A DNA stretch of 64,000 nucleotides from Streptomyces canus (lineage in GTDB: Bacteria > Actinomycetota > Actinomycetes > Streptomycetales > Streptomycetaceae). Below, in pieces: positions 3,843 to 42,735 of the stretch. Every line of letters starts with the position of its first letter. The stretch's first letter is position 1. Location of the stretch: NCBI RefSeq assembly GCF_041435015.1, contig NZ_CP107989.1, positions 5,332,001 through 5,396,000 of the forward strand, written 5' to 3'. A model generated the notes under the pieces. That model worked only from the letters and a program-made list of their open reading frames with translations, made no database searches and was not told the origin of the DNA. Both the position numbers and the translations under genes were made by a program.

Positions 3843-4664
3843 TCAGGCCTGCGGCAGCGACTCCCCCTGCACCGCCTGGACATCGAGCTCGACCTTCAGC
3901 GTCGTACCGATCGCCGCGATCCCCGCCTGCACCACCTGGTTGTAGTTCATGGCGAAGTCCTCCCGCCGAAGCTGGGTGGTGGCCCGGAAGGCGGCACGGG
4001 TCCCGCCCCAGGGATCGGACCCCGTCCCCAGATACGCGAGGTCCAGGTCGACGGGGCGTACGACACCACGCATCGCCAGCTCACCCCGTACGGTCCACCG
4101 GTCCGTGCCGGCCACGGCCAGCCCCGTGGACCGGTACGTGATCTCCGGGTACCGCTCGACATCCAGGAAGTCCGCCGACCGCAGGTGCTCGTCCCGCATC
4201 GCGTTCCCCGTGTCGATGGAGGCCGCCCGGATCACCGCCTCCACCCGCGACTTGGTCACGTCGTCCGGGGCGACCTCGATCGCCGCCGTGAAGTCGGTGA
4301 AGCGGCCGTGCACGCTGGAGATGCCCAGATGCTGGGCGACCGCGCCCACGCCGGAGTGGGCCGGGTCCACGGTCCAGGGCCCCGGCGGCGGAAGTTCCGC
4401 CCCGCCGATACGGGCCAGTGTGACCGTGCCGACCTCGGCCCGGCCGCTCGCGGTGACGATCGCGCTCGACGCGGCGGGCGCGTAGCCGACGGCCGTGACG
4501 ATGACGGTGTACGGCCCCGGCTCCAGCGGTGTGCCGTCCCGTACCGCCCCTTCGGCGTCCGCCTCCGCGCGCAGCACCTGCGTCCCGGTCATGTCGGTCA
4601 CCGTGACGACCGCGTGCGACACGGCCCATCCGTCCCGGGTCCGGATCCTCGCGCTCAGTCCCAT
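3843..4664 (-). CDS. YceI-family protein with an N-terminal carboxypeptidase-regulatory-like module
   Basis: 273 residues. Residues about 1-85 form a beta-sandwich module of the carboxypeptidase-regulatory type (GWAVSHAVVTVTD, GPYTVIVTAVGYAPA). Residues about 95-270 are a YceI lipocalin-like domain (WTVDPAHSGVGAVAQHLGIS, VHGRFTDFTAAIEV, RSADFLDVERYPEITYRS, DLAYLG). YceI proteins bind isoprenoid-type lipids. No signal peptide is visible, unlike many secreted YceI proteins. The ATG at 4664 has a good GAGGAG nine bases upstream; a longer start at 4736 has none. It is the last gene of the marR-MFS-yceI set, and the preceding transporter carries the same module. Confidence 0.85.
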   Translation of the reverse strand: MGLSARIRTRDGWAVSHAVVTVTDMTGTQVLRAEADAEGAVRDGTPLEPGPYTVIVTAVGYAPAASSAIVTASGRAEVGTVTLARIGGAELPPPGPWTVDPAHSGVGAVAQHLGISSVHGRFTDFTAAIEVAPDDVTKSRVEAVIRAASIDTGNAMRDEHLRSADFLDVERYPEITYRSTGLAVAGTDRWTVRGELAMRGVVRPVDLDLAYLGTGSDPWGGTRAAFRATTQLRREDFAMNYNQVVQAGIAAIGTTLKVELDVQAVQGESLPQA

Positions 4665-32553: not shown

Positions 32554-32778
32554 TGATCTTTGCTGTACGTCATCCACCTCTCCCCAAAGCCATTCCATCG
32601 AGTGACCGGGGCCCCATACGGCTGACGGGGGCCCGGGGCCCAACTAGGGTGCGGCGCAAGCGGTCCGGCACTTGGCCCACCGGCATTGCGATGTCAGTGA
32701 CGGGTGCCACAGTGGGGGAGTGAGCAACGCCAGGACAGCTGGGCATTCAGGACGGCAGGGAGGGGGCGAGGTCCGGTC

Positions 32779-35229
32779 ATGACCGGTATCGGTGTCGAGG
32801 TAGCCGCGCAGGCCGCGCGCTCCCGTGCCCTCGCCGTGCTGCGCATCCGCAGCCGTGCGCTGGCCGTGGCGCTGTTGCCCGCGGCGGTGGCCGTGGTGCT
32901 GCTCGCCGGAGGGTCCACCAGTCATCTCGTGGGCGGGTTCTGGGACACCGCCCGCCTGGCCATGACCGTTCTCGGGGCCGTGGTGCTGCTCGCCGCCGGA
33001 GCAGTGGCTCTGGTCATCGCCCGCGCCCGCCCCGCCGTCAGTCCGACCGTCGCGATCGCCGAGGAGTCCGCGCCCGACCTGTACCGCATGGTGCGTGACC
33101 TCGCCGACCGCCTGGACGTCCCGGCCCCCTCCGCGATAGCGCTCACCCCGGACTGCGACAGCTGGCTGGAGGACCGCACCCACCCCGCCCACGGCCCGCC
33201 CCCGCAGGAGGGCCGGGACGACGAGATCGCGGGCGTCCGCGGCTCCCACCGCCGTGTCCCGGCCGCACCGGTGCTGGTCATCGGCTCGCCGTTCCTGTGG
33301 TGGATGCGCGTCGGCGAACTGCGGGCGGTCCTCGCACCGGTCGTCGCCGGTACGGGCCCTTCGGCGCACCCCGACATAGCGGCGGCCCGCCGTTTCGTGC
33401 GGGGTCTGGACGCGGCTGTGGCCGTCGGCTCCGTCCCGGGCCGCTGTCCGCTCACCCGTGTGATGTGCGCGGGTGTCGCCTGGGTGGCCCGCCTCCTCCT
33501 GCGCAGCTGCCGGGAGCACGCGACCCAGATGGAGCGCGGGGTCGCGGCCGCGGCCGCCGAGCGTGCACAGGCTGTGGACTACGGCCTCAGGATCGTGGCC
33601 CAGGAACAGGTGGGCCTGGCGTACGCGGGCTGGGACCGGCTGCTGACCCGGGTCGCGCTCCCCGCCTGGAGGATGGGCCGCTGGCCCTCCCGCCTGGACG
33701 CGGGCGTGGTGGCCGCCCTCACCGAGCTGTCCCGCCGCGACCGCCTGGCCGAGGGTTTCGCCTCCCGCCTGGGTGAGCGCCCCGCCTGTGACCTGCTCGA
33801 AGAGCCCGGCGCGATCGACGAGGCCACCTCCCTCCTCGCCGCCCGCCTCTTCCACGGCGGCCCCGCGGAGACCGGCCAGGACTGGTCCCCGGTGGACTGG
33901 CAGGAGTACCCGGAAGAGGTCGTGGACCGAAAGTGGCGCCTGGACGCTGCCCGCCTCCACCGAGTCCTGGACGCCCAGGGCGTGAGCCCCACGCCGGGAA
34001 CCGCCCCGCCGGAAGCCCACGGCCCCACCCTCTCCCGAGTCCTGGCCCACCTGTCGGCTCCCGGGCACACCGGCCCCACTCCACACCCCCCGACAGCCAA
34101 CCGACCCGCCACCTCGACACCCACGTCGTCACCCGCTCCCACCACGACGGCCGGCGGCGGACTGACCTCGACGGACGACCCCGGCGCCGTCGAGCAGGGT
34201 CCGGCGTCCAGTGAGACCGCAGCATCTCGGCGTGATCCCGCTTCCATGGACCGCGCGGCGATGGCCGGTGGATTGACTTCGGCGGCGGACGCCGGCGCCG
34301 TCGAGCAAGGGCGCGAGCAGGGGCCGGCTCGGGCAGACGCGGGCGGTCCGGCGTCCGGCGAGAGCGCAGCACCTCTGCGTGATCCCGCTTCCACAGACCT
34401 CACCTCGATTCCGCCGGCCGACGGCGTGGCGACGACCGGTCGACCCGCCTCCCCGGACGCCGCCGGAGGCGCGCAGCACGAATCGGCTCAGGCGGACGCC
34501 GCACCCGCGACCGCCGCCCCTGAACCGATCCGGCACGACCGGACTCCCGCCACCCCCGTACCGGCTCCACCGGACGGCGCCGTGACGCCGGACCAGGACC
34601 GTGAACCGCCTTCGGCTGAGGCCCTGGCGGCCGCACAGCACGACGCGCCTTCGGCTGAGGCCCTGGCGGCCGCACAGCACGACGCGCCCTCGGCTGACGC
34701 CCTCGCGGCCGCACAGCACAACCCGGTCCCGCAGGACGAGCCCGCGGTAGCCGACCGTGAGACAGCTGCCGCCCTCCAGGAGCCACCCGCAGCCCCTGAC
34801 GAATGTGACGCGGGTGGCGAAGGTGCCGTAGGCGAAGGCGCAGACGGCGAAGCCGAGACCCTCGCCGCGGCGCTCACCGCCGAGCTCGCCCGTGAGGAAG
34901 CCGCCGCCCCGCAGTCCCGCAGCACGCCCGACATCACCCCCTGGGACGACACCGCCCTCCCCCTCTTCCCGCTCCAGCCGCCCCGCAGCGCCCGAGAACT
35001 CCTCACCGACCACGTCACCGCGATGGTCTGCTGCGCCGCGATCGACACCGCCGGCGCCGCCCCGGGCCTGGACTGGCTCGACGGCCCGTCCCTCCTCATC
35101 AACGGTGAACGCGCCGCGGACCTCACCCCCCGCGTCCTCAGCCTCGTGGAGGACGGCGACCCGGCCCCTCTGCGCGCATGGCTGGTCAAGTCGGGGATAC
35201 GGCCCGAGAAGCCGGTCCGCCTCGTCTGA
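32779..35229 (+). CDS. Large membrane protein with a degenerate M48-peptidase-like domain and a long repetitive tail
   Basis: 816 residues. Two helices lie near residues 35-52 (LALVAL-like LPAAVAVVLLAGG) and 60-82 (MTVLGAVVLLAAGAVALVIA). Next comes a region resembling M48/HtpX proteases: APDLYRMVRDLADRLDVPAP, then PVLVIGSPFLWWMRVGELRA. The position that should carry the zinc motif HExxH reads VLAPVVAGTG, so it cannot be an active zinc protease of that kind. Residues about 430-700 are Ala/Pro/Asp-rich and include three tandem 13-residue repeats and a larger repeated GGLTS...GAVEQG block. The last 80 residues (LLTDHVTAMVCCAAIDTAGA, PRVLSLVEDGDPAPLRAWLV) are compact and conserved-looking. Function unknown. 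Confidence 0.75.
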   Translation: MTGIGVEVAAQAARSRALAVLRIRSRALAVALLPAAVAVVLLAGGSTSHLVGGFWDTARLAMTVLGAVVLLAAGAVALVIARARPAVSPTVAIAEESAPDLYRMVRDLADRLDVPAPSAIALTPDCDSWLEDRTHPAHGPPPQEGRDDEIAGVRGSHRRVPAAPVLVIGSPFLWWMRVGELRAVLAPVVAGTGPSAHPDIAAARRFVRGLDAAVAVGSVPGRCPLTRVMCAGVAWVARLLLRSCREHATQMERGVAAAAAERAQAVDYGLRIVAQEQVGLAYAGWDRLLTRVALPAWRMGRWPSRLDAGVVAALTELSRRDRLAEGFASRLGERPACDLLEEPGAIDEATSLLAARLFHGGPAETGQDWSPVDWQEYPEEVVDRKWRLDAARLHRVLDAQGVSPTPGTAPPEAHGPTLSRVLAHLSAPGHTGPTPHPPTANRPATSTPTSSPAPTTTAGGGLTSTDDPGAVEQGPASSETAASRRDPASMDRAAMAGGLTSAADAGAVEQGREQGPARADAGGPASGESAAPLRDPASTDLTSIPPADGVATTGRPASPDAAGGAQHESAQADAAPATAAPEPIRHDRTPATPVPAPPDGAVTPDQDREPPSAEALAAAQHDAPSAEALAAAQHDAPSADALAAAQHNPVPQDEPAVADRETAAALQEPPAAPDECDAGGEGAVGEGADGEAETLAAALTAELAREEAAAPQSRSTPDITPWDDTALPLFPLQPPRSARELLTDHVTAMVCCAAIDTAGAAPGLDWLDGPSLLINGERAADLTPRVLSLVEDGDPAPLRAWLVKSGIRPEKPVRLV
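34612..34728 (+). repeat. Three tandem 39-base repeats inside the gene
   Basis: Units at 34612, 34651 and 34690 encode SAEALAAAQHDAP, SAEALAAAQHDAP and SADALAAAQHNPV. The first two are identical in bases; the third has several changes. Period 39 keeps the frame, so copy number could vary between strains without breaking the protein. Confidence 0.9.
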
Positions 35230-37960: not shown

Positions 37961-38036
37961 TGGAGCGAACGACGAGGTTCGAACTCGCGACCTCAACCTT
38001 GGCAAGGTTGCGCTCTACCAACTGAGCTACGTTCGC
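37961..38036 (-). tRNA. tRNA-Gly(GCC), copy 1
   Basis: 76 bases including an encoded CCA. Acceptor GCGAACG/CGTTCGC, anticodon loop TTGCCAA in a CAACC/GGTTG stem, T-loop GTTCGAACC. The anticodon GCC reads GGC and GGU. It ends against the purC terminator. Confidence 0.96.
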
Positions 38037-38058
38037 ATGCGCCGTGGCGCGAGAACCA

Positions 38059-38667
38059 CTATACCCAACCTCGCTCGCGCGCGAGCCGCACGGCCGTGTG
38101 ACGGTTCTCCGCGCCCAGCTTGGAGACGGCCGACGAGAGGTAGTTCCGTACGGTCCCCTGCGACAGCGCGGCCCGTTCGGCGATCTCCGCGACGGGCGCC
38201 CCGTCGGCGGCGAGTTCCAGTACCTCGGCCTCCCGCACGGTCAGGGGAGAGGCCCCGGCGGAGATCGCGTCGGCGGCCAACTCGGGGTCGACGTAGCGGT
38301 TTCCCTCGTGCACCGTGCGGATGATCTCCGCGAGCCGCTGCGCGCTCACGGTCTTCGGAACGAAGCCCCGCACACCGGCCTCGAGCGCCCGCTTGAGATG
38401 CCCGGGCCGCCCGTGACTGGTGACGATCAGCACCTTGCACGAGGGCAGTTCGGTCCGCAGGGATGTGGCGACCTTCACACCGTCCGCGCCGGGCATCTGG
38501 AGATCGAGTACGGCCACGTCGGGCTCGTGCGCCCGGGCCATCGCCAGCGCCTCGGGACCGGTCGCCGCCTCCGCGACGATCGCGAGGTCGTCCTCCAGGG
38601 AGAGCAGCGCGGCGAGAGCGCCCCGAATCAGATGCTCGTCATCAGCGAGCAACACCCGCACGCTCAC
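38059..38667 (-). CDS. NarL/FixJ-type response regulator
   Basis: 202 residues. The receiver domain has the acidic pair Asp9/Asp10 (LLADDEHL), the phospho-acceptor Asp55 (VAVLDLQMPG), Thr in LIVTSHG and Lys105 (GFVPKTVS). The LuxR-type helix-turn-helix lies at about 138-195 (LTVREAEVLELAADGAPVAE, IAERAALSQGTVRNYLSSAV). It resembles DesR-like partners of DesK-type kinases. The GTG at 38667 begins VSVRVLLADDE and is the first unit of the junction repeat array; an in-frame GTG at 38685 lies within the array. It should control the adjacent ABC exporter. Translation probably depends on coupling through the array. Confidence 0.92.
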   Translation of the reverse strand: MSVRVLLADDEHLIRGALAALLSLEDDLAIVAEAATGPEALAMARAHEPDVAVLDLQMPGADGVKVATSLRTELPSCKVLIVTSHGRPGHLKRALEAGVRGFVPKTVSAQRLAEIIRTVHEGNRYVDPELAADAISAGASPLTVREAEVLELAADGAPVAEIAERAALSQGTVRNYLSSAVSKLGAENRHTAVRLARERGWV

Positions 38668-38998
38668 GAGCCCATCCCCTCCCACACCACGTCCACGGTC
38701 ACGAGCCCGCCTGTACGGTCACGGACCATCTCCTCCAACGCCACGCGCCGGTCACGAGCCCGCCTCCGACACATCACCCGTACGGTCACGGACCATCCCC
38801 TCGAACAACGCCACGCGCACGCTCACGAGCCCAGCCCCTCCAACGCCACGCGCCGGTCACGACCCCGCCTCCGACACATCACCCGTACGGTCACGGACCA
38901 TCCCCTCCAACGCCACGCGCACGCTCACGAGCCCAGCCCCTCCAACGCCGCCCGCACGGTCACGAGCCCACCCCCTCCGACACCACCCGCCCAGTCAC
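38664..38998 (-). repeat. Minisatellite of eleven 34/35-base units, each with a GTGA stop/start overlap, between kinase and regulator genes
   Basis: TCAC (GTGA on the minus strand) recurs at 38664, 38699, 38719, 38752, 38786, 38823, 38857, 38891, 38925, 38960 and 38995. Spacings are 34 or 35 bases, except one of 20 and one of 37. Most units read on the minus strand as GGAGGGGnTGGGCTCGTGA plus a GCGTGCGCGTGGCG-like part. The first unit is the response regulator start and the last contains the kinase stop. A higher-order three-unit block is duplicated (38752-38850 and 38857-38950). Each GTG opens a frame of 7 to 41 codons that ends exactly in the TGA of another unit, so all mini-frames overlap as GTGA. 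Confidence 0.93.
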
Positions 38999-40209
38999 GA
39001 GGCCCCCTCCGTCGTCACCAGCGGCACCTCCGCCATCAGCCGGAACACGCCCTCGCGGACCGGTCCCGCCTCCAGCCTCCCGGTCACGGCCGCGAGCCGC
39101 TCCCGCAGTCCCGTGAGTCCGGACCCGCCGGGGCCCTGCGACCGCGACGCCCCGTCGTTCTCCACGGTCAGCACCACCCGCTCCCCCTCTCTCCGCAGAG
39201 CCACCACGCACAGCTTGGCGTCCCCGTGCCGCAGGACGTTCGTGGTCGCTTCCCGCACCACCCAGCCGAGCGCCGACTGCACCTCGGCGGGCAGCCCGTT
39301 CGGCTCCCCGGTGACCACGCAGGTGATGCCCGCGGCGGTCAACACCCCTTGCGCTCCCGTGAGTTCGATCCCGAGATCGGCCTCCCGGTATCCCCGTACG
39401 ACATCCCGCACCTCGCGCTGCGTCTCACTCGCGATCCGCTGCACCTCGGTCATCTGGTCCATGGCCTCGGCCCGTCCCCGACGCGCCAGCTGCACGGCCA
39501 GTTCGCTCTTCAGCGCGATCACGGCCAGGTTCCGCCCCATCACGTCGTGCAGGTCCCGCCCGAACCGCAGCCGTTCCTCGGCGACGGCGAGCCGCGCCCG
39601 GGTCTCTCGGGCCGTGTCGAGTTCGTAGACGGCGTTCAGGAGCCAGACGGAGAAGACGGAGGTGAAGGCGAGGAACCCGGCGGCGACCAGCACCACCATG
39701 CCGGTGACCAGCGACTCCGGGACGGCGTAACCCAGGGGAAAGCCACCGAGGACGGCGCCCGCGGCGAAGCCGCCCACCAGCGCGAGCACCCGCCGTCGCC
39801 TGCGGACGCCGAGCGCACCGATACCGGCCGCGAAGGTCAGCACGCCCACGAAGACCGCGCCCGCCGCCCTGTTCAGACCATCGTCGTCCGGACCCCGCTC
39901 GGCGATGCCGATCACCGCGACGGAGATGACGAGCGTGACCGCCGCGAGCACCCACAGCGTCCGCACCGGCTGCTCGCGCCGCCCCCGCGTCCAGTCGAGC
40001 GCCCGCGACGCGGTCACCGCACACACCACGGCATGCGCGCACACCAGCAGCACCAGCCAGACCGCGAGCTGCCCCGTCACCTGCCCGAAGACCGGCAGGC
40101 CGATCGAGGCGACGTAGATCAGCGCGAAGAAGTGGAACGACCAGCGCGTGTACGTCTCCACCTTCGCCGGCGTGCTCTTCCGCCGCCACCAGCCCCCTGC
40201 CTCGCGCAT
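38995..40209 (-). CDS. DesK-type sensor histidine kinase
   Basis: 404 residues. About five or six transmembrane helices occupy residues 25-195 (FFALIYVASIGLPVFGQVTG, LLVCAHAVVCAVTASRALDW, LWVLAAVTLVISVAVIGIA, VLTFAAGIGAL, VVLVAAGFLAFTSVFSVWLL). The HisKA_3 phospho-acceptor is His221 in FGRDLHDVMGRNLAV. The ATP domain has REATTNVLRHGDAK (N-box) and GSGLTGLRERLAAV (G-box). Kinases of this class sense membrane state or lipid-active drugs and pair with a NarL-type regulator. The stop at 38995 forms the last GTGA unit of the junction array. It starts 15 bases after the ABC permease stop, so the four genes form one minus-strand unit. Confidence 0.93.
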   Translation of the reverse strand: MREAGGWWRRKSTPAKVETYTRWSFHFFALIYVASIGLPVFGQVTGQLAVWLVLLVCAHAVVCAVTASRALDWTRGRREQPVRTLWVLAAVTLVISVAVIGIAERGPDDDGLNRAAGAVFVGVLTFAAGIGALGVRRRRRVLALVGGFAAGAVLGGFPLGYAVPESLVTGMVVLVAAGFLAFTSVFSVWLLNAVYELDTARETRARLAVAEERLRFGRDLHDVMGRNLAVIALKSELAVQLARRGRAEAMDQMTEVQRIASETQREVRDVVRGYREADLGIELTGAQGVLTAAGITCVVTGEPNGLPAEVQSALGWVVREATTNVLRHGDAKLCVVALRREGERVVLTVENDGASRSQGPGGSGLTGLRERLAAVTGRLEAGPVREGVFRLMAEVPLVTTEGAS

Positions 40210-40223
40210 GCTCTCCCCGTACG

Positions 40224-41006
40224 TCAGCGCCTCGGCTCCCACCGGAACCACCGCTGTACAGCAAACACGGCCAGCACCGTCCAGGCCACCGCGGTCCCGA
40301 TGGCGCCCAGGGCATCGTGCGCCGAGAGCGTGCCCGCCCAGCCGCCGCGGATCAAGGTGATCACGGGGGACAGCGGCAGCAGCTCGCACACCGACGCGAA
40401 CCTGTCGGGCAGCATTTCCAGGGGCACGGCGACGCCCGAGAGGACCATCGAGATCATCACGAACGGCAGCGTGGTGACCTGCGCGCTCTCCACGGTCCGG
40501 GTCACGGCCGCCGTCACGGCCGCGAGCGCGACGCACAGCACCAGACCCAGCAGCAGTCCCAGAGCGGCGAGATGGGGCGCGCGCGGTGCGGGCACGTCGA
40601 GCAGGGCCGTGCTCGCGGCCACCAGCACCAGGGACTGTGTGAGCCCGGTCGCGCCGATCGGCAGCGCGGTGCCGCAGAGGATCTCGACGTCCCGCAGCTC
40701 CCCGGTGCGCAGCCGCTTGAGCACCAGTTCCTCGCGTCGGGAGGTGTAGATCCCGACGAGGGCGCCGTACACACCGAACAACAGGGCGAAGCCGACCGCG
40801 GCCGGCAGCAGCACCAGGCCGACGCTCAGCCCGGCCTCCTCGACGTCCATGTCGTCCACGACGGACCGCAGGCTGAACGGCAGCGCGAGCGGCACCAGCA
40901 CGGCCGCGACGAGCGTGGCCTTGCTGCGTCCGAGCAGCGTGAACTCGGCGCGGGCGAGGGCGCCCAGCCTGCTTACGGGAGTGCTGGGAGTGGTGACCGT
41001 GCTCAT
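40224..41006 (-). CDS. ABC-2 type transporter permease
   Basis: 260 residues with six predicted helices: TLVAAVLVPLALPFSLRSVV, VGLVLLPAAVGFALLFGVYG, TGLTQSLVLVAASTALLDVP, LGLLLGLVLCVALAAVTAAV, LPFVMISMVLSGVAVPLEML and GTAVAWTVLAVFAVQRWF. The cytoplasmic TSRREELVLKRLRTGELRDV segment between helices 2 and 3 is the ABC-2 coupling region. The ATG at 41006 overlaps the ATPase stop as ATGA, so both subunits are made in step. Together they would export a drug, peptide or lipid. Regulated most likely by the downstream kinase/regulator pair. Confidence 0.92.
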   Translation of the reverse strand: MSTVTTPSTPVSRLGALARAEFTLLGRSKATLVAAVLVPLALPFSLRSVVDDMDVEEAGLSVGLVLLPAAVGFALLFGVYGALVGIYTSRREELVLKRLRTGELRDVEILCGTALPIGATGLTQSLVLVAASTALLDVPAPRAPHLAALGLLLGLVLCVALAAVTAAVTRTVESAQVTTLPFVMISMVLSGVAVPLEMLPDRFASVCELLPLSPVITLIRGGWAGTLSAHDALGAIGTAVAWTVLAVFAVQRWFRWEPRR

Positions 41007-41941
41007 ACCGAGACCTCCTCGCGCGCCGCGATCCCCAGGAACGCCTCCTCCAGCGAGGCCGACCGCACATCGAGCCGCCGCAGTTCGACCCCGGCCCTGT
41101 CGGCCCACACCAGCAGTCCGGTGGCCGTCCGCTGCAACTCCCGCGTCCGCAGCCGTACGACGCCGCCGTCGATCTCGTGCCCGCTCACGCCCAGCTCCCC
41201 GAGCGGTGGCAGATCTCCCACGAAGTACCCCTCCGGCAGCTCGAACGAGATCCGCGCCGGCTGGGCGGCGGTCACCTCGGCAGGTGTCCCCGTGGCCGCG
41301 ATCCGCCCCTCGTGGAGGATCGCCAGCCGGTCGGCGAGATCCTCGGCCTCCTCCAGATAGTGCGTGGTGAGCAGCACGGTCGTTCCCCGGTCCCGCAGTG
41401 CCCGCACCAACTCCCAGGTGTCCCGGCGCCCTTCGGCGTCGAGGCCGGTCGTCGGCTCGTCGAGGAACAGCACCTCGGGGTCGCCGAGCAGCGCGAGCGC
41501 CAGGTCGAGGCGCCGCCGCTCGCCTCCCGACAACTGCTTGACCCGTACACCGGTCCGCCGCGCGAGCCCGACGAGTTCCAGTACCTCCAGCGGCGGCCGG
41601 GCCCCGCTGACGCAGCCCGCCCACATCCGCGCGGTCTCGTCGACGGTCAGCTCGGACGGGAAGCCGCCCTCCTGGAGCATCACGCCGGTACGCGGGCGTA
41701 CGGCGGCCCGCTCGGCGTACGGATCATGGCCCAGGACGCGGATCCGTCCGTCGGTCGGCCGGGCGAGCCCCTCGAGGAGTTCGACGGTGGAGGTCTTGCC
41801 GGCTCCGTTGGTGCCGAGCAGGGCGAAGACCTCTCCGCGGTCCACGGCGAAGCTGATCCCGCGCACGGCCTCGAACCCGCCCCCGTACACACGCCGCAGG
41901 CCGGTGACCTCAATCACGTGTTCGTGTTCGTCGGTGTTCAT
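41003..41941 (-). CDS. ABC transporter ATP-binding protein (drug-exporter type)
   Basis: 312 residues. Walker A GTNGAGKTS, Q-loop VMLQEGGFPSELTV, signature LSGGERRRLDLALALLGDP, Walker B VLFLDEPTTGLD and the H-switch LLTTHYLEEAE are intact. The C-terminal DUF4162-like extension (ISFELPEGYFVGDLP, VELRRLDVRSASLEEAFLG) is typical of exporters such as DrrA or the bacitracin/natamycin-type ATPases. First gene of the ABC-kinase-regulator unit. The 91 bases between it and the hairpin upstream should contain the promoter. Confidence 0.94.
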   Translation of the reverse strand: MNTDEHEHVIEVTGLRRVYGGGFEAVRGISFAVDRGEVFALLGTNGAGKTSTVELLEGLARPTDGRIRVLGHDPYAERAAVRPRTGVMLQEGGFPSELTVDETARMWAGCVSGARPPLEVLELVGLARRTGVRVKQLSGGERRRLDLALALLGDPEVLFLDEPTTGLDAEGRRDTWELVRALRDRGTTVLLTTHYLEEAEDLADRLAILHEGRIAATGTPAEVTAAQPARISFELPEGYFVGDLPPLGELGVSGHEIDGGVVRLRTRELQRTATGLLVWADRAGVELRRLDVRSASLEEAFLGIAAREEVSV

Positions 41942-42032
41942 GAAGCCAGCGTCCCGGCGGACCGGATGCCACAGCAGTGCGCGCTGTCACCACTCCGTAT
42001 GACAAATGTCAGACGGTGCACCGGACATGAAA

Positions 42033-42061
42033 AAGACCCCGGTCGCGATGACCGGGGTCTT
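42033..42061. terminator. Terminator of the second tRNA-Gly gene
   Basis: A perfect 12-base stem (AAGACCCCGGTC with GACCGGGGTCTT) closes GCGAT. It lies five bases from the encoded CCA end of the tRNA at 42067. A T-rich flank follows on each strand (TCTTC, AAAAAG). Confidence 0.9.
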
Positions 42062-42066
42062 CTTCA

Positions 42067-42142
42067 TGGAGCGGACGACCAGGTTCGAACTGGCGACCTC
42101 AACCTTGGCAAGGTTGCGCTCTACCAACTGAGCTACGTCCGC
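42067..42142 (-). tRNA. tRNA-Gly(GCC), copy 2
   Basis: 76 bases including an encoded CCA. Acceptor GCGGACG/CGTCCGC, anticodon loop TTGCCAA. It is identical to copy 1 through the D-arm and anticodon arm and differs in the acceptor and T-stem, so the pair are diverged duplicates. Confidence 0.96.
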
Positions 42143-42222
42143 ATTGCCTCCGACCGGCTCTCACCGATCGGCGCGAGCATCATCCTACCCGATCCACCAG
42201 AGTGGTCCGGACGGTGATGCAG

Positions 42223-42294
42223 AGCGGGTGACAGGAATTGCACACTGCGCCTTCCCCCTGGAAGGGGGATGTTCTACTACTGAACTACACCCGC
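42223..42294 (-). tRNA. tRNA-Gly(TCC)
   Basis: 72 bases. Acceptor GCGGGTG/CACCCGC, anticodon loop CTTCCAG in a TCCCC/GGGGA stem, T-loop TGCAATTCC. The anticodon TCC reads GGA and GGG. CCA is not encoded. It lies 80 bases upstream of tRNA-Gly(GCC) copy 2, so both may come from one precursor. Confidence 0.93.
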
Positions 42295-42417
42295 GTGTAC
42301 TCCGTGAGCTGGGCCTTTCGGCCTCGCCCCTCGGCGTGCTCCAGACTCTAGCTGACCAGGTGGGGTGCAACGCAAGTCGGTTGGTCCGAGGGGCGGGTGA
42401 CCCGGTGTCGGCAGGCC

Positions 42418-42735
42418 CTACTGGGCCTCGGTGAACGCCTCGTAGACCTTCTTGGGGATCCGTCCGCGGGCGGGGACGTCCATCTTGTTGGCCTGGGCCC
42501 AGGCCCGGACCGCCGCCGGGTCGGGAGCGACCTCGGTCTGCCGGTACGCCTTGCCGGACCTGGACCGCTTGCGGCCGGCCTCCACGTAGGGCTCGAGTGC
42601 CTTACGCAGTTTCTTGGCATTGGCTTGATTCAGGTCGATCTCGTACGACTTGCCGTCGAGTCCGAAGGCGATCGTTTCCGCCGCTTCCGAGCCGTCGATG
42701 TCGTCAAAGAGAGTGACCACGACCTTCTGCGCCAC
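42418..42735 (-). CDS. lsrL: Lsr2-like nucleoid-associated protein (LsrL type)
   Basis: 105 residues from the GTG at 42735. The N-terminal dimerisation part is AQKVVVTLFDDIDGSEAAET, IAFGLDGKSYEIDLN. The C-terminal DNA-binding domain has VRAWAQANKMDVPARGRIPK, including the RGR AT-hook-like motif that enters AT-rich minor grooves. Lsr2 proteins silence horizontally acquired, AT-rich genes. Streptomycetes carry two; position beside purS (SCO4076 as I recall) fits the paralogue LsrL rather than the main Lsr2. The upstream gap to purS is notably AT-rich for this genome, a possible autoregulatory target. Confidence 0.9.
   Translation of the reverse strand: MAQKVVVTLFDDIDGSEAAETIAFGLDGKSYEIDLNQANAKKLRKALEPYVEAGRKRSRSGKAYRQTEVAPDPAAVRAWAQANKMDVPARGRIPKKVYEAFTEAQ

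Follow-up and report, generated by a model that had tools for sequence, protein, structure and literature searches.

A tandem array of stop/start junctions between a sensor kinase and its response regulator in Streptomyces canus: a putative termination–reinitiation relay

Coupling between adjacent genes has been reported to fail when the genes are moved apart. In the excerpts available of PMC10666635, a 22-nt gap abolished coupling in H. volcanii, and a 38-nt gap in E. coli cut coupling by 80–90% or abolished it. The role of re-initiation in coupling is disputed between that study and PMC7538156, which, from work in E. coli, argues against same-ribosome re-initiation as the principal route to coupling. 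Tandem units between two operon genes are known from mycobacteria, where MIRU, as far as the excerpted sources go, are described as mobile, insert at start codons and carry a frame that couples at −4 nt (PMC12548453). MIRU occupy 41 locations in H37Rv (PMC2734929), have unit lengths of 77 and 53 bp (PMC4213456) and, in BCG Danish, form two or three 77-bp repeats at senX3–regX3 (PMC6615170).

The window analyzed here is a 64,000-nt stretch of S. canus DNA (assembly GCF_041435015.1, contig NZ_CP107989.1, positions 5,332,001–5,396,000), and all positions given for it are counted from its first nucleotide. Pfam matches and gene order define an operon on its minus strand that runs from an ABC ATPase through an ABC-2 permease and a HisKA_3 kinase to an array of short repeats and then to a LuxR-type regulator (Table 1). 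In the RagK/RagR arrangement, genes for an ABC ATPase and a permease are followed by a HisKA_3 kinase and a LuxR/NarL regulator, as they are here; we take ATPase, permease, kinase, regulator to be the gene order of the rag cluster, and the match is based on this. By gene order, the account in PMC9739842 and the synteny that we assume, the window kinase and regulator are probably RagK/RagR (SCO4073/SCO4072). The excerpts of that account likewise describe a pair of kinase and NarL-type regulator in S. coelicolor and assign the rag cluster a role in aerial growth and sporulation; an array is unmentioned in them, whereas the window pair has one. The kinase stop codon (TGA, 38997–38995) is overlapped by a GTG at 38998–38996, and the regulator start at GTG 38667 agrees with the conserved N-terminus of its relatives.

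Table 1. Coordinates of the operon genes, the array and the predicted relay frames in the window
Feature	Position	Strand	Basis and details
ABC transporter ATPase (probably RagA)	41003..41941	-	first operon gene; Pfam, gene order
ABC-2 permease (probably RagB)	40224..41006	-	Pfam; ATG overlaps ATPase stop as ATGA
Sensor kinase, HisKA_3 (probably RagK)	38995..40209	-	Pfam HisKA_3 1.6e-14; ATG 40209, stop TGA 38997-38995
LuxR/NarL-type response regulator (probably RagR)	38059..38667	-	Pfam Response_reg + GerE; GTG 38667
Array, ten units and eleven GTGA junctions	38664..38998	-	sequence read, TRF, unit alignment
Higher-order repeat of 105 nt (three units)	38732..38969	-	TRF; 2.3 copies, 94% match
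Relay step 1 (putative)	38960..38998	-	GTG 38998, 12 codons, stop = TGA of junction 38963
Relay step 2 (putative)	38925..38963	-	GTG 38963, 12 codons, stop = TGA of junction 38928
Relay step 3 (putative)	38857..38928	-	GTG 38928, 23 codons, stop = TGA of junction 38860
Relay step 4 (putative)	38786..38860	-	GTG 38860, 24 codons, stop = TGA of junction 38789
Relay step 5 (putative)	38664..38789	-	GTG 38789, 41 codons, TGA overlaps regulator GTG 38667
Terminal unit	38664..38702	-	GTG 38702, 12 codons, ends on regulator start

An earlier note on this sequence had described eleven units of 34/35 nt between kinase and regulator. The array is real, with eleven in-register GTGA sites on the minus strand (38998, 38963, 38928, 38894, 38860, 38826, 38789, 38755, 38722, 38702 and 38667) and TRF scores of up to 419, but the eleven sites are junctions that delimit ten units, and the successive spacings of 35, 35, 34, 34, 34, 37, 34, 33, 20 and 35 nt equal 34 or 35 nt in 7/10 cases within a range of 20–37 nt. 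Two extra GTGA sequences, at 38882 and 38777, fall within units. The further claim that GGAGGGG precedes most GTGA sites holds for a shorter motif: upstream of the ten downstream sites, exact GGAGGGG is found in five cases, GGAGG in eight and GAGG in nine (none at 38702), and GGAGG precedes the regulator start itself. The array is no chance pattern. TRF reports it in four rows with scores from 149 to 419, three of which exceed the next-best row of the window (205), and the 105-nt higher-order repeat is a recent duplication of three units. Misassembly, which the note had named as a possible refutation, is hardly the source of the array, because homologous but different arrays are present in four other species, in two of them on contigs of ~10 Mb. 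Elsewhere in the window, a 39-nt tandem repeat (34607–34719; 2.9 copies, 95% match) lies inside the ORF 32704–35229 (+) and, with a period divisible by 3, is probably an in-frame coding repeat.

A structured RNA was also considered and rejected: within 38000–42500 no Rfam family was matched except two tRNAs upstream of the operon, and the predicted folding energy of the array RNA (−176.9 kcal/mol for 391 nt) corresponds to a z-score of −0.99, which is not unusually stable for its composition. The upstream matches are a tRNA-Gly(gcc) at 42067–42142 (ARAGORN; Rfam match 42070–42142) and a second tRNA-like match at 42223–42294 seen by Rfam only.

Twelve mini-frames of 7 to 41 codons start at GTGA sites upstream of the regulator, and all twelve end in the TGA of another unit or in the TGA at the regulator start, as had been read by hand in the earlier note. 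The chain that it proposed from the kinase stop to the regulator GTG is also exact and comprises five steps (38998-38963-38928-38860-38789-38667), with a 4-nt stop/start overlap between neighboring frames at every step.

Our preferred reading, to which we assign a probability of roughly 70%, is that the array is a duplicated junction working as a termination–reinitiation relay. A ribosome that ends the kinase would restart on the GTG overlapping the kinase stop and translate a short frame whose own stop overlaps the next start, reaching the regulator in five such steps. It is also possible, within the same relay, that translation of the array opens the message for new 30S subunits. Stepwise passage of ribosomes along the chain is the predicted step of this scheme. 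Based on the excerpted gap effects at 22 and 38 nt (PMC10666635), a 330-nt gap should uncouple the pair unless it is itself translated, and a relay would keep kinase and regulator translationally coupled across these 330 nt. Coupling thus seems to have survived insertion of the array.

The ancestral state of the junction can be judged from orthologs across the genus, collected with the best regulator matches first and therefore not from every genome. The 376 loci obtained include 30 without a regulator and three without a kinase; of the 343 with both genes, 17 are duplicates, leaving 326 distinct junctions. Kinase and regulator overlap by exactly 4 nt in 297 of these (176 ATGA, 119 GTGA and 2 TTGA). 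In those 297 junctions the kinase extends from 1 to 241 residues (median 18) beyond query residue 405, so that the overlap is kept while the sequence preceding it changes. Low-complexity, repeat-rich kinase C-termini that vary in length next to a constant 4-nt overlap are seen in L005, L008 and L010. A plain 4-nt stop/start overlap is the likely ancestral junction.

Arrays of the same family occur in five species, spanning 330 nt in the window, 404 nt in G141, 323 nt in G140, 205 nt in S. canus DSM 40017 and 105 nt in LUP47B. These species form one clade (support 100/99), and their sister, S. canus 299MFChir4.1, has a plain overlap, so that the gaps of these six close species measure −1 (no array), 105, 205, 323, 330 and 404 nt. 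The array would have grown out of such an overlap once S. canus 299MFChir4.1 had branched off, unless that strain has lost it, and its units have later been rearranged in every species. Unit number ranges from 0 to about 12 across species, which bears out the expectation that copy number differs among relatives, the comparison being between species with one genome for each. In LUP47B (L033, ~4212–4378), the kinase frame crosses one array-like unit before it stops in another further on, so the kinase tail can take up array units. Two other species have unrelated arrays at the same junction: G189 has three starts spaced by 24 nt, and Act143 has units of 86 nt.

The unit itself points to where the array came from. 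Its 35-nt consensus, GTGACCGTGCGGGTGGTGTCGGAGGGGATGGGCTC, reads as the first codons of the regulator followed by the last codons of the kinase, with ~18 nt resembling the regulator start and ~17 nt the kinase end. Compared with the window, 16 of the 18 regulator-start nucleotides match, and the remainder aligns, with one gap, to the GGAGGG...CTC kinase end; compared with the array-less sister, 15/18 regulator-start and 10/17 kinase-end nucleotides match without gaps. A 361-nt query searched against the 10.68-Mb genome of the same strain for dispersed copies gave one match at E ≤ 0.001 (40 of 81 first-look candidates scored), and a dispersed repeat was rejected on this basis, a mobile element being unlikely. 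Because the unit resembles its flanks and has no other genomic copy at that threshold, local tandem duplication of the junction explains the array better than insertion of a mobile repeat, which is the less likely origin. As each unit would be a duplicated regulator start plus kinase end, most units carry an SD-like stretch and an overlapping stop/start (GTGA). The array is therefore probably the kinase–regulator junction itself in tandem duplicate, with relay function as its most likely role.

Two questions follow for the relay reading: (i) do other separated kinase–regulator junctions obey the same path from stop to start and (ii) is this path seen at other gene pairs. For the first question, we followed each junction from a start codon over the kinase stop along its frame to the stop, then to the start overlapping that stop, and so on, and counted a landing only at exactly the regulator start; the null randomizes phase by adding 0–2 bases per interval. 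Five of the 29 exceptions to the exact overlap were set aside because the overlap was longer, the gap was 2 nt or a frameshift was likely. The other 24 are separated by at least 10 nt; omitting three with an ambiguous regulator start and six without a start on the kinase stop leaves 15. The relay lands on the regulator start in 13 of the 15 (4.48 expected, P=6.3e-6), in 9 of 11 outside the S. canus clade (3.19 expected, P=3.5e-4) and in 7 of 9 outside the clade with gaps of at least 30 nt (2.5 expected, P=0.0024), naive P values that are optimistic because kinship among species and rows makes them overstate independence. A frameshift in the tail of the upstream gene, unlike a duplication, lands by chance about half the time; a frameshift origin of the separated junctions would accordingly bring the null nearer to 1/2, where 9/11 gives P=0.033. 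The two junctions that miss are L031, which has an internal TAG, and L067, where the path ends 4 nt past the start. Among the three rows with ambiguous starts, outside the 15, L338 and L343 land and L375 does not.

The six junctions without a start on the kinase stop comprise L032 (CTGA) and five kinases that end in TAG and lie 65–227 nt from the regulator with no relay (L324, L331, L339, L344 and L367). The TAG junctions are genuine counter-cases in which coupling has apparently been lost and the regulator seems to stand alone. S. canus DSM 40017, a member of the array clade, has CTGA at the kinase stop and hence no start there. The regulator can thus be made without a relay. With either mode of restarting, the phase data imply that ribosomes would traverse the array, and the earlier proposal of stepwise re-initiation down to the regulator gains support from this comparative evidence. 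Relays seem to be maintained by selection at coupled junctions.

For the second question, a triple GTGASCG pattern was scanned genus-wide over 392 genomes and matched in 180, with a reversed-pattern control matching in about 30; many matches are in-frame coding repeats, and the pattern is too broad. Thirty loci among the matches listed, one of them the window, were screened by spacing and open frames, and eight of these were read as sequence, as were 19 further stretches. The search for GTGA repeats at gene junctions that the earlier note had suggested thereby turned up further stop-to-start arrays. L077 lies in an Opp-type ATPase pair (ABC_tran and oligo_HPY on both sides) with three 35-nt units, and L377 lies in a HipA_2/DUF3037 pair with two 35-nt units that form a 2 × 35-nt relay; the relay lands in both.

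Each of these two pairs was then surveyed for its usual junction. HipA/DUF3037 genes overlap by 4 nt in 29 of 30 loci (26 by script and three on inspection), the remaining locus being the array. For the Opp pair, 95 loci were surveyed. The first 30 comprise 24 exact overlaps and six separated junctions, of which five land when the later of two starts is taken (L429 fails) and six for any in-frame start. A further 65 comprise 56 overlaps, three longer overlaps, one locus without a start candidate, one without an upstream gene and four separated junctions; all four land under the any-in-frame-start rule, L457 doing so on the first start and having a later one as well. Overall, 10/10 separated Opp junctions land by the looser rule and 8/10 by the stricter one (L429 and L457 fail), and for gaps of at least 20 nt the figures are 6/6 and 5/6. 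Four of the ten, with two-codon mini-frames (e.g. GTGACATGA) and similar flanks, may represent one event.

Pooling cases of at least 16 nt with the S. canus clade counted once (kinase–regulator 9/11 plus the clade, Opp 6/6 and HipA 1/1) gives 17/19 landings (P=6e-7 under a 1/3 null, P=3.6e-4 under a 1/2 null), values that, like those that follow, are optimistic because rows are related. Scoring L457 as a miss gives 16/19 (P=7e-6 and 0.002, respectively), and 15/17 (P=4.5e-6 and 0.0012) remain once the two cases ascertained through arrays are dropped, namely the HipA/DUF3037 array and L427, which is closely related to L077.

Seven other GTGA arrays between same-strand frames were checked among the matches listed; their downstream starts are without homology backing, and their orthology is not established. 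Five have a start on the upstream stop, and of these two land, which is at chance level (L104 and L389 land; L086, L385 and L394 miss); L100 and L386 have no such start. In L104 and L389, both from G315 and with 40- and 42-nt periods, the path reaches an in-frame start belonging to the following frame. Since the starts in these seven lack homology backing and nothing indicates coupling there, we read the relay rule as limited to coupled junctions.

Conservation within the units bears on whether the starts or only the stops matter. It is possible but unlikely that phase merely stops out-of-frame ribosomes from passing the regulator start, with the array translated, the regulator initiated de novo and array translation at most opening the messenger. 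A wraparound alignment of 41 units from the five related arrays, in which units are not independent and each array's first unit includes the kinase stop by definition, keeps the T, G and A of TGA in 41, 40 and 39 units, compared with 188/246 for the other T columns pooled and 49/82 for the other A columns; certain G columns away from the stop/start match TGA in conservation (41, 40 and 40 of 41). The SD columns are kept in 68–85%, no better than the average column in this alignment, and no SD conservation above background was found. A stop among the best-kept elements with less-kept SDs is what a guard against overrun would leave, and the GGAGG in front of the regulator start, the high absolute stability of the array RNA (though not for its composition) and the E. 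coli work against same-ribosome re-initiation as the main route (PMC7538156, as excerpted) agree with it. The start is kept too, however, with NTG in 39/41 units, and the exact 4-nt overlap of 297/326 relatives is, in the excerpted text of PMC10666635, the usual signature of coupling by re-initiation. Both observations speak against a mere guard.

The relay could also have a quantitative consequence, as the earlier note had supposed. Copy number as a selected tuning dial of the regulator:kinase ratio would add to the relay explanation and is no alternative to it. The number of relay steps does differ among close species, with five in the window, six in G141, three in G140, two in LUP47B and a direct overlap in S. 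canus 299MFChir4.1, but slippage predicts such variation equally well, and we consider selected tuning improbable.

Slippage is central to a further view, namely that the array is a minisatellite evolving neutrally, with a GC-rich repeat prone to slippage in a spacer that tolerates it; its phases would be arithmetic, and the regulator downstream would be translated from its own ribosome site. With tandem units whose copy number differs between relatives, the array has the features of a variable tandem repeat, and its change is fast: regulators are 98.5–100% identical among the five species although the arrays span 105–404 nt. The genus has other non-coding GTGA-containing arrays, among them some with periods of 40, 43 and 37, and of the five noted above two land. 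The spacings within the five related arrays are also instructive. Inner spacings are 2 mod 3 in 16/37 cases, near the 1/3 expected of an arithmetic pattern, and strict unit-by-unit phase selection within the array is not supported. The earlier caution that the pattern is partly arithmetic thus stands for this array taken alone, but not for the orthologous junctions, which land far above random phase. Indeed, landing in 13/15 junctions and in 10/10 at the Opp pair, together with T and A letters of TGA that are better kept than other T and A columns, makes neutrality quite improbable. The terminal spacing is 35 nt in 5/5 arrays, a further point against neutrality, although a single ancestral unit may have passed it on to all five. 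In 5/5 arrays every unit leads to the regulator start (0.15–0.18 expected for each). Constant exit, general convergence and free inner spacings together suggest that selection acts on the whole path and its exit and not on single units.

Finally, a DNA element, whether repeated operators to which the regulator would bind or a promoter for it within the operon, like the activity reported in the excerpts of PMC4213456 for the mycobacterial senX3–regX3 spacer, is very improbable, as the spacings vary over 12–59 nt and are not helical multiples, the stop/start letters are among the most constant, and a search of 38400–39400 that covers Streptomyces promoters only in part found neither a sigma-70-type promoter nor a terminator.

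With the relay as the preferred reading, a broader rule can be stated with odds slightly short of even: coupled Streptomyces junctions would keep inserts mostly when a mini-frame runs from the upstream stop to the downstream start, which demands a length of 2 mod 3 or several frames that together sum to such a length. If this rule is true, operons tolerate hypervariable spacers without losing translational coupling, and a series of relay steps could serve as an evolvable attenuator of stoichiometry, the present array being a five-step example. The phase of inserted sequence at coupled junctions is apparently under selection, which would be genomic evidence for the passage of ribosomes from stop to start through short frames. 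Since unit number runs from 0 to about 12, the relatives supply a natural gradient for gauging re-initiation per step, and some short frames between Streptomyces genes are suggested to be relays rather than proteins.

How does this locus compare with known systems? Termination–reinitiation at 4-nt overlaps (ATGA/GTGA) employs the same element as every junction of the array, but the cases in the accessible parts of PMC6728339 and PMC10666635 join two genes directly, whereas the array chains many such junctions through mini-frames. Coupled uORFs and minigenes such as that of axe-txe also have a short frame whose translation affects the gene that follows, depending on distance and frame (PMC8708949 and PMC12548453, as excerpted); these are single frames, whereas the array is serial, repeated and situated between two operon genes. 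In the open-access literature searched, as far as the accessible text of its papers extends, no chain of stop/start relays between genes of an operon is described apart from MIRU. The array would thus be a variant of translational coupling hitherto unreported in that literature, with a mechanism supported by comparative phase evidence.

The nearest known thing in kind is the mycobacterial MIRU at senX3–regX3. Both are tandem units of variable copy number between a sensor kinase and a regulator, as far as the excerpted MIRU papers describe, and the MIRU feature of a short frame overlapping its neighbor by 4 nt recurs in 12/12 mini-frames of the array. Compared by reported unit length rather than by MIRU sequence, 77 and 53 bp stand against an array consensus of 35 nt, and both MIRU lengths are 2 mod 3, in line with the phase rule of the present analysis. 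The differences concern origin and setting: (i) MIRU is dispersed at several loci and the array is not, having one match in its own 10.68-Mb genome at E ≤ 0.001; (ii) MIRU, in the excerpts, is mobile, whereas the 35-nt array unit is probably a copy of the junction in which it lies; and (iii) the flanking genes are SenX3/RegX3 in one case and a HisKA_3 kinase with a LuxR-type regulator in the other. The array would therefore work like MIRU while probably being a local junction duplication, and it would give the mycobacterial case a non-mobile counterpart.
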